Shown: one piece after another, positions 51,645-59,664 of the stretch
Numbering within the stretch: the first letter of the stretch is position 1
Layout: every line of letters begins with the position of its first letter
NCBI GenBank assembly: GCA_021781735.1
Contig: JAJXWF010000002.1
Coordinates: 1-64,000, forward strand
Reading direction: 5' to 3'
DNA from: Actinomycetes bacterium
Lineage (GTDB): Bacteria; Actinomycetota; Actinomycetes; Propionibacteriales; Propionibacteriaceae
Length of the DNA stretch: 64,000 nt
Made by a program: the position numbers and the translations under genes
Notes under the pieces: generated by a model
What the model was told of the DNA's origin: nothing
Databases searched by the model: none
Seen by the model: only the letters and a program-made list of their open reading frames with translations

Positions 51645-52445
51645 ATGGCTGACGACGCGATCCGCACCGGCGGTCCCGGCGCGACCGGTCAACGCTCGCG
51701 CCAGCACACGATCGCCGAGGTCGTGCTGCGTCGCGGCACCGTGGGCATCGATGACCTCGTGGCGATCACCGGGGTCAGCACGATGACGATCTACCGCGAC
51801 ATCGCCGCCCTGGAGGACGCCGGCCTGGTGCAGCGTCACCGGGGTCGGATCACCGCCGTGGCCACCGGCCTGCACGAAGCCAGCGCCGCCTTCCGGGTCG
51901 AGCAGCAGGGCACGGCCAAGCAGGCGATGGGAGCCCTGGTCGCCGGCTGGATCCACCCCGGCAGTTCGCTGCTGCTCGACGACTCCACCAGCGGCGTGTT
52001 CCTGCTGCGTGCGCTCACCGACAAGAGCCCGCTGACGATCGTGACCAACTCGCTGCTCGTCGCCCGCGAGGCCACCGAACATCCCGACTGGCGACTGTTC
52101 GTCACCGGCGGCGAATACCAGGCGTGGGCCGACGCGCTCATGGGCCCGACCACGCTCACCACGCTGGCCGGCATCGACGCCGACTACTGCGTGCTGTCGG
52201 CGTCCGGCATCTCCGACGGACGATGCCACCACCCCTACCAGGACGTCGCGGCGGTCAAGAGCCAGATGCTCGCCTGCGCCCGCACCAGGATCCTGCTGCT
52301 CGACCACACCAAGTTCGCCCGGCACGCCCTGCATGCGTTCGCCCGCCTCGACGAGTTCGATCATGTCGTCGTCGACGCGGAGGCGACTCCCGACCAGCGC
52401 GAGCAGCTGGCGGACTGGGGGGCCACCGTCGACGTCGCCGGATGA
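51645..52445 (+). CDS. DeoR family transcriptional regulator
   Basis: The 266-residue protein has an N-terminal DeoR helix-turn-helix ([45 protein letters not shown]) and a C-terminal DeoRC sugar-phosphate sensor ([46 protein letters not shown]). Regulators of this type respond to phosphorylated sugars or polyols. It lies directly upstream of the isomerase-phosphatase-kinase-dehydrogenase genes on the same strand and is their likely repressor. Confidence 0.9.
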
Positions 52446-52564
52446 GCCCGATCGCCGCGTCCGGCACCAGCGTCGGCCGATCGCGTCCCGGTGCGGTCTC
52501 GCGCGCACCCGATCCGCTCCGGACGCGGTGGCGGGCCCGATCGGCGAACTTCTCATTCGGGCTG

Positions 52565-52592
52565 TTGTGAATCACACGGGGTGCGCTATTTT
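52565..52592 (+). promoter_or_regulatory. Candidate promoter and operator of the polyol operon
   Basis: TTGTGA (52565-52570), a 16-bp spacer and TATTTT (52587-52592) form a plausible promoter 47 bp before the isomerase start. The -35 box overlaps the palindrome TGTGAATCACA (52566-52576), a possible DeoR or Crp/Fnr-type site. Confidence 0.5.
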
Positions 52593-52638
52593 TCGCATAT
52601 CCCGGGTTGATGGCAGCGGTGCCAGGAAGGAGCGGACC

Positions 52639-53133
52639 ATGGGATTCCGAGTGATCGTCGCCGGCGACAGTGCAGGGGTTTCGTACAAGGAAGCGATCCG
52701 CAAGATGCTCGAGGACGACCCTCGTGTCGACCTCGTGCTCGACGGAGGCGTCACCCCCGATGAGGACGTCGACTACCCGCACGTCGCGGTGGCCGCCGCC
52801 CGTCGGATCGCCTCCGGTGAGGCCGACCGGGGCATCTTCGTCTGCGGCACCGGCATGGGCGTGGCCATCTCGGCCAACAAGGTGCCCGGCGTCCGCGCCA
52901 GCGTCGCGCACGACTCCTACTCGGTCGAGCGGCTCGTGCTGTCGAACGATGCCCAGGTGCTGTGCCTCGGCGAACGGGTCATCGGCCGCGAACTCGCGCT
53001 GCGTCTGGCCCGGGAGTTCCTCAACTACACCTTCGACCCCTCGTCGCGCTCGGCCGCCAAGGTCGAGGTCATCCGGTCGTACGAGTCGGCCACTCCCACC
53101 GGCCCGGACGCCGAGCAGCCGACCGGCTGCTGA
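52639..53133 (+). CDS. RpiB/LacAB-type sugar-phosphate isomerase
   Basis: The 164-residue enzyme begins [26 protein letters not shown] precedes the ATG. RpiB-type features include [43 protein letters not shown], where the active-site cysteine is in the CGTG motif. Family members isomerise ribose 5-phosphate, allose 6-phosphate or erythrulose 4-phosphate (EryI/DerI/LerI). The neighbouring FGGY kinase and dehydrogenase favour a tetrulose- or pentulose-phosphate substrate; this is inference. It is the first gene of the operon after DeoR. Confidence 0.88.
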
Positions 53134-53353
53134 GCGTCCACCCGACCCCATCGGTCCCGTTCCTGTTCGACGTGATCGGCACCTGGCCGGCCGGGATCCA
53201 GAACAGCCCGTGCCACCACCGTCGCGATCCCCACATCGACCCTCCGGCCCTGGCCAACCGGGCCGCATACAGCCTCGCGGGGCCCTCCGCGCCGCCGTTC
53301 CGCTGAGCCGACCGACCTCCACCCACCGATTCCCACCCCGAGAGGAACCCGCC

Positions 53354-54235
53354 ATGTCATCGCAGACCGCCGCCCCGGCGTCCGATGTTCTCGCCTCCCC
53401 CACGCGGCTCTACGGCGCCTACGTGTTCGACATGGACGGCACGATCTACCTGGGCGACCACCTGCTGCCCGGGGCGAAACGAATGATCGAGGAACTGCGC
53501 GCCCGCGGGATCCCGGTGCGGTTCCTGTCGAACAACCCGACCAAGGACCCCGAGCAGTACGCCGACAAGCTCGCCCGCCTGGGCCTGCCCACCGACGTCG
53601 CCGACATCGCCAACACGGTGGTCACCACCACCCGGTGGCTGCAGGAGCACCACCCGGACGCCGTGCTGTTCCCGATCAGCGAGGAGCCTCTCAAGAAGGC
53701 CCTGGTGAGGGCCGGGTTCCGGCTGTCGGAGAAGCCCGAGGAGATCGACATCGTCATCGCCTCGTACGACCGGGGATTCGACTACCGCAAGCTCCAGATC
53801 GCCTTCGACGCCATCTGGTTCCACAAGCGGGCGTTCCTCATCCAGACCAACCCCGACCGGTTCTGCCCGTTCCCCGGGGGACGCGGCGAACCCGACTGTG
53901 CCGCGATGACGGCGGCGATCGAGGCGTGCACCGGCACCACCTGCCGGGTGAGCCTCGGCAAGCCGTCGCCGATCATGCTGCGCGAGGCCATGGCCGGCCT
54001 CGACGTCGACCTGGCCGACGCGGTGATGGTGGGCGACCGGCTGCAGACCGACATCCAGATGGCGCTCGACACCGGTATGACCTCGGCGTTGGTTCTCACC
54101 GGCGAGGCGACCGCTGACGACACCCGGGCCCGCACGCCCGGGCAGCGTCCCAGCTATGTGCTCGACCGGGTCGACCGGCTCATCCCCGCACACATCTGGG
54201 ACGAGCTCGGCTGGACCGATCACGACCGCACCTGA
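53354..54235 (+). CDS. HAD-IIA family phosphatase (NagD-like)
   Basis: The 293-residue protein has HAD motif I DMDGTIYLG (nucleophile Asp), motif II FLSNNPTKD, the lysine region GKPSPIM and motif IV MVGDRLQTDIQMA. The C2A cap places it with NagD, 4-nitrophenylphosphatase and glycerol-phosphate phosphatases. It may recycle dead-end phosphates in the polyol pathway or act as a real pathway step. The ATG at 53354 follows GAGAGGA; the long track ORF upstream is a shadow of the isomerase. Confidence 0.88.
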   Translation: MSSQTAAPASDVLASPTRLYGAYVFDMDGTIYLGDHLLPGAKRMIEELRARGIPVRFLSNNPTKDPEQYADKLARLGLPTDVADIANTVVTTTRWLQEHHPDAVLFPISEEPLKKALVRAGFRLSEKPEEIDIVIASYDRGFDYRKLQIAFDAIWFHKRAFLIQTNPDRFCPFPGGRGEPDCAAMTAAIEACTGTTCRVSLGKPSPIMLREAMAGLDVDLADAVMVGDRLQTDIQMALDTGMTSALVLTGEATADDTRARTPGQRPSYVLDRVDRLIPAHIWDELGWTDHDRT

Positions 54236-54257
54236 CACCACCCGCCCGGGGTGATCC

Positions 54258-54301
54258 GCGGCGTACGACCTGGTCAAAGTTCCCGACAACTCGTACGCCG
54301 C
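54258..54301. repeat. 11-bp perfect inverted repeat between phosphatase and kinase genes
   Basis: GCGGCGTACGA (54258-54268) and TCGTACGCCGC (54291-54301) flank 22 bp in the 153-bp gap. It may be an mRNA stem that sets relative expression within the operon, or a regulator site. Confidence 0.6.
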
Positions 54302-54388
54302 CGGCACTCTCGGACGCCGCGACCTCCCCGGCCCGGCCGTGGGAGCCCGTCGTCACGCACCGCAGCGTCACCACCCGAAAGGATCACC

Positions 54389-55951
54389 ATGGCACCCACC
54401 GGCCCCTACCTCATGGGCATCGATTTCGGCACCGAGAGCTGCCGGGTGGCGTTGTTCGACGTCGCCGGCCGTCCGATCCACCTCGCCGCCACCCCCTACC
54501 CGACGAGCCACCCGCGTTCGGGCTGGGCCGAGCAGAACCCGCAGCAATGGTGGGAGGCCCTGCAGGCCTCGAGCCACAAGGCGCTCGCCGGATCCGGCGT
54601 CTCGCCGGCCGAGATCGCCGGCATCAGCTACGACGCCACGACGATGACCGTCGTCGCGATGGACGCCAAGGGTGACGAGTTGCGTCCGGCCATCATGTGG
54701 ATGGACGTGCGCGCCACCGAGCAGGCGGCCCGCGCCGAGACATCCTCCTCGATCGCCCGCCGCTACAACGGCGACGGCACCGCCCCGGCCACCGCCGAGT
54801 GGTATCCGTTCAAGGCGGCCTGGCTGCGCGAACACGAGCCGGAGACCTACGCCCGCGCGTTCCGGCTGGTCGACGCCCCCGACTGGGTCACTTACAAGCT
54901 CACCGGCACCTGGACGCTGAACATCAACTCGGCCGCCCTGCGCATGTACTACAACCGGGACGCCGGCGGCTGGCCGGTCGACTTCTACGAGACCATCGGT
55001 TGCCCCGACGTGTTCGACAAACTTCCGAGCGATGTCGTCGATCTCGGCCGGCCGGTGGGCGAACTGAGCACGGTCGCCGCCCAACTGCTCGGACTCACGC
55101 CAGGCATCCCCGTCGCCCAGGGCTCCGCGGACGCCTGGGCCGGCCAGATCGGCCTCGGGGTCGTCAAGCCGGGCAAGATGGCCCTGATCACCGGTTCGTC
55201 GCACGTGTTCAGCGGGCAGACCGACAAGCCGATCCACGGCAAGGGCTTCTTCGGCGCCTACACCGATGGCGTTGTCCCCGGGCAGTACACGGTCGAGGGC
55301 GGGCAGGTCTCGACCGGCTCGGTGATGAAGTGGTTCAAGGACAACTTCGCCCGCGACGTCACCGAAGCCGCCGAGCGTCTCGGTCTCAGCGTCTACGACG
55401 TGCTCAACGAGAAGAGCAGGCACATTCCGCCGGGCTGCAACGGACTCATCGTCAACGAGTACTTTCAGGGCAACCGCACCCCCTACACCGACTCGAAGGC
55501 GCGCGGCATGATCTGGGGCCTGTCGCTGATGCACGGGCCCGAGCATGTCTACAAGGCGATCCAGGAGGGCATCTGCTACGGCACCGCGCACAACCTGCGC
55601 GCCATGGAGGACGCCGGCATGCAGGTGAGCGAGGTGGTCGCCTGCGGGGGGATGACCAAGAGCCGCCAACTCATGCAGATGCACGCCGACGTCATGAACA
55701 AGCCGATCACCCTCACCGAGGTCGGGGACGCCGTCGCGCTCGGCTCGGCGATGCTCGCGGCGACCGGCGCCGGCATCTACGCATCCCTCGAGGAGGCCGC
55801 CGACAACATGGTGCACGACCTCGTCACGATCGAGCCGAACCAGCGGATGCACGAGCAGTACGCCTTTTACCTCGAGGAGTACATCCAGGGCTATCCGAGG
55901 CTTCAGGGACTGATCCACGAACTCGTCGATCACGAGGCGGCGCAGGGCTGA
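54389..55951 (+). CDS. FGGY-family carbohydrate kinase (EryA-like)
   Basis: The 520-residue kinase has the FGGY_N phosphate-binding start MGIDFGTESCRVALFD and the C-terminal ATP signature VVACGGMTKSRQLMQMHADVMNKPI. It also has SADAWAGQIGLG and GGQVSTGSVMKWF. FGGY kinases phosphorylate polyols and ketoses; this one looks most like erythritol kinase (EryA) and related pentulose kinases (from memory, not a search). GAAAGGAT precedes the ATG. It is followed 26 bp later by the dehydrogenase. Confidence 0.88.
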   Translation: MAPTGPYLMGIDFGTESCRVALFDVAGRPIHLAATPYPTSHPRSGWAEQNPQQWWEALQASSHKALAGSGVSPAEIAGISYDATTMTVVAMDAKGDELRPAIMWMDVRATEQAARAETSSSIARRYNGDGTAPATAEWYPFKAAWLREHEPETYARAFRLVDAPDWVTYKLTGTWTLNINSAALRMYYNRDAGGWPVDFYETIGCPDVFDKLPSDVVDLGRPVGELSTVAAQLLGLTPGIPVAQGSADAWAGQIGLGVVKPGKMALITGSSHVFSGQTDKPIHGKGFFGAYTDGVVPGQYTVEGGQVSTGSVMKWFKDNFARDVTEAAERLGLSVYDVLNEKSRHIPPGCNGLIVNEYFQGNRTPYTDSKARGMIWGLSLMHGPEHVYKAIQEGICYGTAHNLRAMEDAGMQVSEVVACGGMTKSRQLMQMHADVMNKPITLTEVGDAVALGSAMLAATGAGIYASLEEAADNMVHDLVTIEPNQRMHEQYAFYLEEYIQGYPRLQGLIHELVDHEAAQG

Positions 55952-55977
55952 GCCCGGCCGGGGAAGGGAACGAACCG

Positions 55978-57339
55978 ATGTCCGAACTCATCGACAAGGC
56001 GCTGCGGACGGCGTCCGACACCCGGGCGGCCGTGATCGCCGAGGACGCGATCGACCGGGTGGGCGCGGTGTTCGCCGACCTGTTCGACGCGGCGACCGCG
56101 ATCGTCGTCGCCGACCGGCGCACGATGGACGCCGCCGGCGACAGGGTCGTGCAGGTGTTGCGGGCCGCCGGCGTCCGCCAACTCGACCCGTACGTGTTCG
56201 CCGGCGAGCCGGAGCTGTACGCACGGTACGAGAACTGCGAGCTGTTGCGGGACGTGCTGGCACCCCTGGACGCGGTCGCGGTCGCGGTCGGAGCCGGGAC
56301 CCTCAACGACATCGTCAAGCGGGCGTCCGGCGAACTCGGGCGGGGCTATCTCGTGGTCGGCACCGCCGCGTCGATGGACGGCTACACCGCGTTCGGCGCC
56401 TCGATCGCCCGCGACGGGTTCAAGCAGACGCTCGCGTGCCCGCCGCCACGGGGGGCGATCAGCGATCTCACCGTGATGGCCGCCGCACCGGCGGTGATGA
56501 CCGCGTCGGGGTTCGGCGACCTGCTCGGCAAGGTGCCGGCGGGCGCCGACTGGATGCTCGCCGACGCGCTCGGGGTCGAGCCGCTCGACCCCGACGTGTG
56601 GGATCTCGTCCAGGGGCCGCTGCGGCACGCGCTGGCCCGGCCCGACGACCTCGCCCGCGGCGACGTGTCGGCGATCGGCGACCTCGCCGAGGGACTGATC
56701 ATGAGCGGTCTGGCGATGCAGGCGCACCGCTCGTCGCGGCCGGCGTCCGGGGCGGAGCACCAGTTCAGCCACGTGTGGGAGATGGAGGGCCACGGCGTCG
56801 ACATCACTCCCCGGCGACTCTCGCACGGGTTCAAGGTGGGCATCGGCACGATCGCGGTCGCCGCGCTGTACGAGCGACTGCTGGCCCGGGACCTGTCCGC
56901 GCTCGACGTGGACGCCGCGGTCGCTTCGTGGCCCACCCGGGATGGGATGGAGGCGCGGGTGCGCGCCATGCAGAGCAACCCCCGGCTCGTCGACGAGAGC
57001 GTCGGGCTGACCCTGGCCAAGTGGATCACCCCCGAGCAGTTGCGCGACCGTCTCGGCCTGCTCGCCCGGCTGTCGCCCACCCTCGTGCCGCGACTGCGGA
57101 AGCAGCTGATCCCCGCCGCCGCGCTCCAGGCGATGCTTCGGGACGCCGGGGCTCCCGCCCATCCGAGCGACATCGGCCTCGACTGGCAGCGCTTCCGCCG
57201 CACCTACGAGGAGGCGCGCACGATCCGCAACCGGTACACGGTGCTCGACCTCGCGGCCGAGACCGGCCTGCTGGCCGAGCTGGTCGCGGAGCTGTTCGCG
57301 GCCGACGGATTCTGGGGACGCCAGGCGCCCGCGTCCTGA
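55978..57339 (+). CDS. Metal-dependent polyol-phosphate dehydrogenase, G1PDH/AraM family
   Basis: The 453-residue enzyme belongs to the iron-containing alcohol dehydrogenase superfamily, sn-glycerol-1-phosphate dehydrogenase branch. The NAD loop is GAGTLNDIVKRAS, then GTAASMDGYTAFGAS. The metal-binding histidines are in GAEHQFSHVWEMEG and RRLSHGFKVGIG. Family members oxidise or form glycerol-1-phosphate-type compounds. In this cluster the likely substrate is the product of the FGGY kinase, a polyol phosphate; this is inference. The C-terminal 110 residues extend past the usual AraM length. Confidence 0.88.
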   Translation: MSELIDKALRTASDTRAAVIAEDAIDRVGAVFADLFDAATAIVVADRRTMDAAGDRVVQVLRAAGVRQLDPYVFAGEPELYARYENCELLRDVLAPLDAVAVAVGAGTLNDIVKRASGELGRGYLVVGTAASMDGYTAFGASIARDGFKQTLACPPPRGAISDLTVMAAAPAVMTASGFGDLLGKVPAGADWMLADALGVEPLDPDVWDLVQGPLRHALARPDDLARGDVSAIGDLAEGLIMSGLAMQAHRSSRPASGAEHQFSHVWEMEGHGVDITPRRLSHGFKVGIGTIAVAALYERLLARDLSALDVDAAVASWPTRDGMEARVRAMQSNPRLVDESVGLTLAKWITPEQLRDRLGLLARLSPTLVPRLRKQLIPAAALQAMLRDAGAPAHPSDIGLDWQRFRRTYEEARTIRNRYTVLDLAAETGLLAELVAELFAADGFWGRQAPAS

Positions 57340-57365: not shown

Positions 57366-57399
57366 GCTATCCTGCCAAACCCGGGTTGGGCAGGATAGC
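57366..57399. promoter_or_regulatory. 11-bp inverted repeat just upstream of the phosphofructokinase start
   Basis: GCTATCCTGCC and GGCAGGATAGC pair perfectly around 12 bases, ending three bases before the ATG at 57403. The right arm contains AGGA, the only ribosome-binding-site-like sequence, so folding would hide it. It may be an operator, an attenuator, or the terminator of the preceding gene. Confidence 0.6.
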
Positions 57400-57402
57400 T
57401 GC

Positions 57403-59664
57403 ATGACCGATTCAATGAGCGCCGCCGGAATCGGCGCAGAGCCTCAGCCCCGCGCACGGATCGGGATCCTCACGTCGGGCGGCGACGCGCAGGGCATGAA
57501 CGCCGCGGTGCGGGCCGTCGTCCGCTCGGCGATCAGCGCCGGCGCCGAGGTGTTCGCGATCTTCGAGGGCTACCAGGGCATGATCGAGGCCGACGACATG
57601 CCCGGCGGCGGCATCCGGCCGTTCGGCTGGGACGACGTCGGCAGCGTGCTGCACAAGGGCGGCACGCTGATCGGCACCTTCCGCAGCAGGGAGTTCCGCG
57701 AGCGGGCGGGTCGGTTGCGCGCCGCCCGCAACCTCATCGTCCGCGGCATCGACCGGCTCGTGGTCATCGGTGGCGACGGGTCGCTGTCCGGCCTCGACCA
57801 GTTCCGCCGCGAATGGCCCGAGCTGATGGCCGACCTGGCGGCGTCCGGGGAGATCGGCGACGACCAGGCGGCGCGGCACCCGACCCTCATGATCGCCGGG
57901 CTGGTCGGCAGCATCGACAACGACCTCGTCGGCAGCGACATGACGATCGGAGCCGACTCCGCCCTGCACCGCATCATCGACGCGATCGACGCGCTGGTGA
58001 GCACCGCGGCGTCGCACCAGCGGAGCTTCGTCGTCGAGGTGATGGGACGCCACTGCGGCTACCTCGCGCTGATGGCGGCCGTGGCCGGTGGTGCCGACTA
58101 TGTGCTCATCCCCGAGAACCCGCCCACCGAGGGCTGGGAGGACCGGATGTGCGCCGAGTTGAGGCGCGGTCGCGGGGCCGGGCGGCGGGAGTCGATCGTG
58201 GTGGTCGCCGAGGGCGCGCAGGACGCCGCCGGCACGCCGATCACCAGCGGTTACGTCCGCCAAGTGCTCGAGGACCGGCTGCACGAGGACGCGCGCGTCA
58301 CGATCCTCGGGCACGTGCAGCGTGGTGGCGCCCCGAGCGCCTACGACCGGTGGGCCTCGACCTGGCTCGGTTATCAGGCGGTGCACGAGGTGCTCAACGC
58401 CACACCTGACACCCCCGGCCATGTCATGGCGATCCGGGGCAACCGGGTGGTGCCGGTCGACCTGGTCGAAGCGGTGCGCAAGACCCGTGAGGTTCCCGAG
58501 CGGATCGCCGCCGGCGACTACGAGGGTGCGATGGCGCTGCGCGGCGGGTCGTTCACCGAGATGCGCGGCATCTTCCATGAACTCGCCGAGCCGAGCCGGG
58601 TCGACGCGGGCGAGGGCACGCGGCGGATCGCGATCCTGCACGCCGGTGGCCTCGCGCCCGGCATGAACACGGCCGCCCGCGTGGCGGTGCGCCTGGGCAT
58701 CAGCCGCGGGCACACGATGCTCGGCGTCCACGACGGGTTCGTCGGCCTGCGCGACGGCAGGATCGAGCAGCTCGATTGGGACGCCGTCGAGCATTGGACG
58801 GCCGACGGGGGCTCGGTGCTCGGCACCCGGCGGACCCTGCCGTCGCTCGATCAGCTCTATGCGATGAGCAAGGTGATGGAGGACCACCGGATCGAGGGGC
58901 TGCTGATCATCGGCGGGTTCAACGCCTACCTCGGTGCCGACCTGCTGCGTCAGGAGCAGGAGCGGTATCCGACGTTCCGGGTGCCGATCGTGTGCGTACC
59001 GGCGTCCATCGACAACAACCTGCCGGGTTCGGAGCTCGCGATCGGCGCCGACACCGCGCTGAACGTCGTGGTCGAGGCGATCGACCGGCTGAAGCTGTCG
59101 GGATCGGCGAGCACGCGCTCCTTCGTCGTCGAAACCATGGGCCGCTACTGCGGCTACCTGGCGATGATGGGCGGCATCGCCGGTGGCGCCGAACGGGTCT
59201 ACCTCAACGAGACGGGCATCACCCTCGAGGAGCTGTACCACGACGTCGAATGGCTCCGCGACTCGTTCACGGCGGGCCGCAAGCTGTTCCTCGCCGTGCG
59301 CAACGAGGAGGCGAGCGAGCACTACACCACTGACTTCCTCGGACGCCTCCTCGAGGAGGAGAGCCGCGGCCTCTACGACGTGCGCACCACGATCCTCGGC
59401 CACACCCAGCAGGGCGGTGCGCCCACCCCGTTCGATCGGCTGCTCGCCACCCGGCTGGTGTCGCGGGCCCTGCGCCTGTTGGACGAGGAGTTCGCGGCCG
59501 GCACCTGGGACTCCTGGCACATCGGCCAGGTCGAGTCACGGATCGAGCAGATGCCGCTCGCGCACATGGCCGAGATGATCGACATGGCCCACCGGCGTCC
59601 GAAGAAGCAGTGGTGGCTCGGCCTGCAGGATGTGCTCAGGGCGGTCGCCGACCAGGCCCGGTGA
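57403..59664 (+). CDS. Double-domain 6-phosphofructokinase
   Basis: The 753-residue protein is two PFK domains in tandem, as in eukaryotic PFK. The N-terminal half keeps GILTSGGDAQGMNAAVRA, VVIGGDGSLSG, the catalytic GSIDNDLVGSD and MGRHCGYLAL. The C-terminal half (from about residue 405) has HAGGLAPGMNTAAR and MGRYCGYLAM. It has IIGGFNAYLG instead of GGDGS and ASIDNNLPGSE with Asn for the catalytic Asp, so it is probably regulatory. It phosphorylates fructose 6-phosphate; ATP versus PPi use cannot be fixed from sequence alone. It may be the last gene of the polyol operon. Confidence 0.9.
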   Translation: MTDSMSAAGIGAEPQPRARIGILTSGGDAQGMNAAVRAVVRSAISAGAEVFAIFEGYQGMIEADDMPGGGIRPFGWDDVGSVLHKGGTLIGTFRSREFRERAGRLRAARNLIVRGIDRLVVIGGDGSLSGLDQFRREWPELMADLAASGEIGDDQAARHPTLMIAGLVGSIDNDLVGSDMTIGADSALHRIIDAIDALVSTAASHQRSFVVEVMGRHCGYLALMAAVAGGADYVLIPENPPTEGWEDRMCAELRRGRGAGRRESIVVVAEGAQDAAGTPITSGYVRQVLEDRLHEDARVTILGHVQRGGAPSAYDRWASTWLGYQAVHEVLNATPDTPGHVMAIRGNRVVPVDLVEAVRKTREVPERIAAGDYEGAMALRGGSFTEMRGIFHELAEPSRVDAGEGTRRIAILHAGGLAPGMNTAARVAVRLGISRGHTMLGVHDGFVGLRDGRIEQLDWDAVEHWTADGGSVLGTRRTLPSLDQLYAMSKVMEDHRIEGLLIIGGFNAYLGADLLRQEQERYPTFRVPIVCVPASIDNNLPGSELAIGADTALNVVVEAIDRLKLSGSASTRSFVVETMGRYCGYLAMMGGIAGGAERVYLNETGITLEELYHDVEWLRDSFTAGRKLFLAVRNEEASEHYTTDFLGRLLEEESRGLYDVRTTILGHTQQGGAPTPFDRLLATRLVSRALRLLDEEFAAGTWDSWHIGQVESRIEQMPLAHMAEMIDMAHRRPKKQWWLGLQDVLRAVADQAR

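Follow-up and report, generated by a model that had tools for sequence, protein, structure and literature searches.

The window analysed here, a stretch of 64,000 nucleotides at positions 1 to 64,000 of contig JAJXWF010000002.1 (assembly GCA_021781735.1), comes from an actinomycete whose nearest named relatives are Propionibacteriaceae; the source assembly totals 3.19 Mb and is 98.9% complete. It carries a cluster of five genes encoding a DeoR/GlpR-family regulator, an RpiB-type isomerase, a HAD-IIA phosphatase, a carbohydrate kinase of the FGGY family (FGGY1) and AraM, a dehydrogenase of the glycerol-1-phosphate dehydrogenase (G1PDH) type (Table 1). All five genes named in an initial annotation, made from the DNA letters alone, were found between 51,645 and 57,339, in one orientation and with no internal stop codon. 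The "plausible promoter" of that annotation was not borne out by a scan for the sigma-70 consensus, which gave no match, other promoter types lying outside that scan.

Table 1. Features of the cluster and of the interval that follows it, in window coordinates.
Feature	Position	Strand	Basis
DeoR/GlpR-family regulator, 266 aa	51645..52445	+	PF00455 131 bits, PF08220 45 bits
RpiB-family isomerase, EryI/DerI side, 164 aa	52639..53133	+	TIGR02133 179.8 bits vs cut-off 168.2; tree
Membrane-protein gene remnant, C-terminal (HIDPPA region), pseudogene	53163..53255	+	9.6 bits, profile positions 282-312
HAD-IIA (NagD/AraL-type) phosphatase, 293 aa	53354..54235	+	TIGR01460 112.6 bits vs 100.15
FGGY1 carbohydrate kinase, distinct subfamily, 520 aa	54389..55951	+	PF00370 141 bits, PF02782 148 bits
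AraM/G1PDH-type metal-dependent dehydrogenase, 453 aa	55978..57339	+	PF13685; best solved match 9h4x
Inverted repeat, perfect 11-bp arms (GCTATCCTGCC...GGCAGGATAGC), AraM-phosphofructokinase interval	57366..57399	.	sequence

The operon core is conserved in Actinomycetota. With AraM as the query, species genomes yielded 80 loci, and the typical Actinomycetota order is DeoR-RpiB-membrane protein-HAD-FGGY1-AraM; because relatives in many genera keep this same order, the gene set goes beyond chance. Often a second FGGY kinase of the L-ribulokinase type follows, and with it an AraD-family protein, a transketolase (present at nine loci within the operon's family), a GpsA-like dehydrogenase or a regulator that has a sugar-binding domain. 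The second kinase accompanies the operon in Cutibacterium avidum, C. namnetense, C. modestum, Gleimia europaea and Actinomyces urinae, and is absent from it in Winkia neuii and Propionicicella superfundia; the one such kinase tested scored above the curated L-ribulokinase cut-offs (714 versus 428 and 687 versus 583 bits), and the rest share 49-98% identity with it. The HAD-IIA phosphatase, which exceeds the cut-off of its subfamily model, has orthologues 65-81% identical in the operons of other genera, and two complete genomes of the family (G005, G029) have the operon. FGGY1 of C. modestum lies in two overlapping reading frames (L059:6413-7974), a possible frameshift. As far as the open-access literature we searched goes, the operon is apparently undescribed.

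The association of kinase and G1PDH-type dehydrogenase proposed in the initial annotation recurs across loci: AraM has a same-strand FGGY kinase no more than 400 bp away in 30 of the 36 Actinomycetota loci, a sample found by similarity to the window AraM and so leaning towards that protein. Of the 16 FGGY1-class genes counted over 58 related genomes, 11 have AraM as their immediate neighbour. In the window's genome each of the three full-length AraM loci adjoins a kinase, the further two being an AraM-AraB pair (contig 251) and a pairing of AraM with an FGGY1 paralogue (contig 108; L006, 10279-13261) that is 53% identical, an aquaglyceroporin-family gene lying ~5.5 kb away on the latter contig. 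On a Rubrobacter plasmid, FGGY1 and AraM are each represented by two genes, together with HAD-IIA, RpiB, DhaK, a GlpA-like flavoprotein and transketolase. The AraM proteins of these operons fall into at least two lineages in the tree, and therefore the association was formed, or AraM replaced, more than once. At one locus (L018), labelled in the AraM tree as a context with AraB only, the nearby FGGY gene is not AraB, and the label is wrong.

Gene content and conserved linkage thus support the polyol-type operon suggested at the outset, and the linkage strengthens the idea of a kinase followed by a G1PDH-type dehydrogenase, which is plausible. We give an even chance to a polyol-catabolic operon leading from polyol to polyol-phosphate, ketose-phosphate, aldose-phosphate and the pentose-phosphate pathway. 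FGGY1 would phosphorylate a C4-C5 polyol at a terminal hydroxyl; AraM, which as a G1PDH relative would depend on a metal and NAD(P), would then oxidise the carbinol that neighbours the free CH2OH, giving a 2-ketose with its phosphate at the far end, and NAD(P)H. The EryI/DerI-type RpiB would convert this ketose phosphate into an aldose phosphate (D-erythrose-4-phosphate if the polyol were erythritol) to be taken up by transketolase, and the HAD phosphatase might serve in clean-up, removing wrongly phosphorylated products. We infer the order of these steps, the substrate (erythritol, ribitol or arabitol), the regiochemistry and the part given to the phosphatase; the same holds for the dehydrogenase acting after the kinase, erythritol as the polyol and the fermentative route envisaged in the initial annotation.

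The statement that the cluster has no transporter is true of the window, but the gap between RpiB and HAD holds the C-terminal remnant of a membrane-protein gene. In relatives, some 20 loci encode at this place a mostly helical membrane protein of ~355 amino acids (for example L034:4237-5319, L040:4390-5466 and L037:4313-5281) with the motifs GAAIGGN, FGPxxGPHIAFAGG, THHxT and THIDPPA. No Pfam or NCBIfam family matched it, and its AlphaFold model (predicted local distance difference test, pLDDT, 79; predicted template modelling score 0.81) had no significant match in the PDB (best E 4.7e-3, template modelling (TM) score 0.13), so that placement by fold was abandoned. Against the C-terminal portion of the family profile, the 220-bp gap of the window gives 9.6 bits, a value reached by none of 1000 dinucleotide shuffles (maximum 3.5). 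The corresponding gap of a congener, ~293 bp long, scores 5.6 bits against the profile (a value that again none of 1000 shuffles reached); inspection by eye also shows a stretch there resembling the N-terminus (FALGVLLFG). An artefact of a single assembly was ruled out, since the congener's gap holds remnants too, and the presence of remnants in both gaps indicates that the gene has decayed in this genus, a secondary loss; no copy was found in the window's genome. The other genes are under purifying selection, given ratios of nonsynonymous to synonymous substitution (dN/dS) of 0.09-0.22 between the two species (AraM 0.22, RpiB 0.18, DeoR 0.09, C-terminal half of FGGY1 0.10), and DeoR is 92% identical in the congener. 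Perhaps the orphan membrane protein is an uptake component and a candidate polyol transporter; the window's genome has two aquaglyceroporin-family genes, through one of which polyol uptake could proceed.

The window AraM is closest to the Ni2+-dependent G1PDH AraM of Bacillus subtilis (9h4x; 138 bits), and its model (pLDDT 92) matches that fold with an E-value of 3e-20 and TM scores of 0.73/0.83. The two share the fold, the metal ligands and the SRPASG motif, and AraB is encoded alongside AraM in the araABDLMNPQ operon of Bacillus, where araM also lies beside a gene for a HAD-IIA phosphatase (AraL); the window protein differs in being ~25% identical and longer by ~60 residues. Positions D134, H261/H265 and H283, taken here as the metal ligands of the G1PDH family, and R254-G258 of the SRPASG motif are invariant in 21 homologues; the "glycerol dehydrogenase" 3ce9 of Clostridium acetobutylicum has SSPASG at this position, without the arginine. 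The residue just before a metal ligand (residue 260) is glutamate in the window clade and in G1PDHs (SGAEH) and glycine in many homologues of the AraB-associated clade (SGAGH), which suggests a change of specificity.

Could AraM be a true G1PDH, oxidising glycerol-1-phosphate to dihydroxyacetone phosphate, its substrate being released as phosphatidylglycerol or lipoteichoic acid is turned over or made by a glycerol kinase specific for the sn-1 position, with the remaining genes serving another sugar? Its nearest solved structure is a G1PDH, and homologues in Kiritimatiellota and Lentisphaerota have glycerophosphodiesterase genes as neighbours. We nevertheless regard this as improbable: with the fold, the ligands and the motif all present, the protein reaches only 154.8 bits on the equivalog model PRK00843 (cut-off 413), the RpiB, transketolase, AraB and AraD neighbours indicate C4-C5 sugars, and the AraB-associated homologues differ beside the metal ligand. 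Nor is FGGY1 the glycerol kinase of the genome, a candidacy ruled out by a separate GlpK that passes its cut-off (737 versus 590 bits) and adjoins a GlpF-type channel. A role for AraM in lipids based on glycerol-1-phosphate is unlikely and was rejected, because PcrB, its lipid partner in Bacillus, was not found in the window's genome.

Outside Actinomycetota, AraM homologues lie without a kinase beside ribulose-phosphate 3-epimerase or AraD, plus MFS genes, in Bacteroidota, and beside glycerophosphodiesterase, flavoprotein and MFS genes in Kiritimatiellota and Lentisphaerota. By their neighbours these appear to be polyol-phosphate settings, and the homologues are candidates for the use of glycerol-1-phosphate or other polyol phosphates. 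At nine such loci (L068, L080, L084, L087, L098, L069, L070, L079 and L086) the neighbours are genes for glycerophosphodiesterase, a fused DAO/Pyr_redox flavoprotein, MFS proteins, ribulose-phosphate 3-epimerase or a metallophosphoesterase. The "AraM" of papers on arabinose use in Bacteroides, described as a mutarotase, is unrelated.

FGGY1 belongs to a subfamily of its own. It falls below every specificity cut-off (GlpK 164 versus 590; XylB 281 versus 380; ribulokinase 306 versus 428 bits), the ribulokinase models scoring best, and L- and D-ribulokinases are its best solved relatives. With the kinase of the Labrenzia ery cluster it shares 25.6% identity (76 bits), the lowest score among the FGGY proteins compared, so that "EryA-like" does not describe it; the row FGGY1_L034 of the FGGY tree is out of frame and is disregarded. 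The nearness of FGGY1 to ribulokinases and xylulokinases, the genuine L-ribulokinase type of the partner kinase, and a fold that AraM has in common with glycerol dehydrogenases acting on free polyols would all suit the reverse order, in which AraM acts first, on the free polyol, and the ketoses are then phosphorylated by FGGY1 (D-type) and AraB (L-type). The ribitol and arabitol operons of the Klebsiella type work in this way: they lead from pentitol to pentulose-5-phosphate with an FGGY kinase, as proposed here, with a dehydrogenase for the free polyol ahead of the kinase and a polyol permease. Such operons are cited elsewhere (PMC12307932). We consider this order unlikely for the present operon, as AraM is closer to the phosphate-using G1PDHs, with R254 of the SRPASG motif invariant, its homologues outside Actinomycetota occur in apparent polyol-phosphate settings lacking a kinase, and no polyol permease is conserved.

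The window RpiB forms a supported clade (95/96) with the isomerases of erythritol/threitol-type clusters associated with DhaK, from Arthrobacter plasmids and members of the family, and Labrenzia EryI branches outside this clade; several branches of the tree are long. The housekeeping RpiB of the same genome is 31% identical and separate in the tree. This supports placing the window protein on the EryI/DerI side, without the tree proving substrate specificity. The protein exceeds the curated cut-off of the actinobacterial RpiB model RPI_actino (TIGR02133); on the curated model of Rhizobiales D-erythrulose-4-phosphate isomerase, NF051858, it scores 146 bits (cut-off 240; Labrenzia EryI 252.8). 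The actinobacterial DhaK/RpiB/TPI clusters, of which DerK/DerI/LerI of Mycobacterium smegmatis are an example, share this RpiB clade (55-64% identity) and a DeoR regulator with the window; they employ an alcohol dehydrogenase followed by a DhaK-type ketose kinase and lack FGGY1, AraM and HAD-IIA, whereas the window cluster has neither a DhaK-type kinase nor a TPI-like isomerase next to RpiB.

The alphaproteobacterial ery cluster (EryA-EryB-EryC-EryD and EryR-EryH-EryI; Labrenzia plasmid pTHAF35_a) shares with the operon a DeoR regulator, an FGGY kinase, an RpiB-type isomerase and a nearby transketolase; around Labrenzia EryI lie a GlpD-like EryB, a TIM-barrel protein, TPI, DeoR and transketolase. 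The operon differs in its kinase subfamily, in a G1PDH-type enzyme where the ery cluster has EryB, in lacking EryC and EryH, and in having a HAD phosphatase and its own membrane protein where the ery cluster has an ABC transporter. As the initial annotation had it, no GlpD-like EryB was found in the window cluster, nor was one found in the conserved operon. Since its isomerase falls on EryI's side in the tree, and since DeoR and transketolase also occur in the Labrenzia cluster, the operon might be read as an ery-type erythritol pathway through L-erythritol-4-phosphate with AraM simply in EryB's place. This seems to us very improbable: the kinase is the distant one noted above, and neither the window cluster nor the conserved operon has an EryC- or EryH-like gene, although both are needed from L-erythritol-4-phosphate (PMC5992420).

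Stereochemistry could offer a more direct route for the kinase-first scheme. Drawn with CH2OH on top, sn-glycerol-1-phosphate, D-erythritol-4-phosphate, D-ribitol-5-phosphate and L-arabitol-5-phosphate agree in configuration at the carbon adjoining CH2OH, and the GlpD-like EryB belongs with the sn-glycerol-3-phosphate series. D-erythrulose-4-phosphate could therefore be the direct product of a G1PDH-type enzyme; this would skip EryB, EryC and EryH and would account for an operon that needs neither EryC nor EryH. Published accounts differ on the chirality of the product of the known kinase: the Brucella route is given as passing through L-erythritol-4-phosphate and three isomerases (PMC5992420), and the EryA product is listed as D-erythritol-4-phosphate (PMC3245297). 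L-arabitol would suit the AraM-AraB pair, and promiscuity has been reported for the ribulokinase of E. coli (PMC12307932). In one genome of Cutibacterium type (G015), which has an AraM identical to that of L049, AraB lies beside AraM and there is no AraA, so L-arabinose is not the source for its AraB. We tentatively extend the scheme, at less than even probability, to a G1PDH-family enzyme that at least two lineages have recruited to serve as a dedicated 2-dehydrogenase for D-series polyol phosphates: with FGGY1 it would take erythritol or ribitol to D-erythrulose-4-phosphate or D-ribulose-5-phosphate in two steps, with L-ribulokinase it would take L-arabitol to L-ribulose-5-phosphate, and uptake would be by the undescribed membrane-protein family.

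Several observations weigh against the kinase-first scheme. The best characterised relatives of FGGY1 act on ketoses, not polyols, and RpiB falls short of NF051858, as given above. The window's genome has AraA, as do other genomes, and its AraB may serve L-arabinose. Some operons are reduced: one locus (L129, G023) lacks AraM, another (L127, from the metagenome-assembled genome LH_M68, G012) consists of HAD-AraM-transketolase without FGGY1, and a third (L134, G020) retains only DeoR-RpiB-membrane protein-HAD.

All Acidipropionibacterium strains in one study fermented erythritol, adonitol, D-arabitol and L-arabitol (PMC6920887), and the occurrence of the operon in genomes of the family makes for a suggestive link. 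Our literature search for polyol phenotypes in Cutibacterium and other Propionibacteriaceae gave data for Acidipropionibacterium only, and naming the substrate from phenotypes of the family was dropped for this reason.

Downstream of AraM, the inverted repeat ends 3 bp ahead of the start codon of a phosphofructokinase gene and is a candidate operator, promoter element or terminator. This gene (57403-59664) encodes a tandem 6-phosphofructokinase of 753 amino acids that, in an actinobacterium, passes the eukaryote-type model TIGR02478 (991 versus 708 bits); the congener also has a tandem phosphofructokinase, 96% identical.

If the kinase-first scheme is true, anaerobic, skin and oral actinomycetes such as Cutibacterium and Actinomyces would possess a polyol-phosphate route that yields NAD(P)H and bypasses the EryB/EryC/EryH detour, and the orphan membrane-protein family would be a candidate polyol transporter. 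Enzymes of the G1PDH family would then also serve in catabolism, away from ether lipids, and there would be a reason for the position of araM beside sugar kinases; the tentative extension to D-series polyol phosphates would further suggest why araM lies in the arabinose operon of Bacillus.

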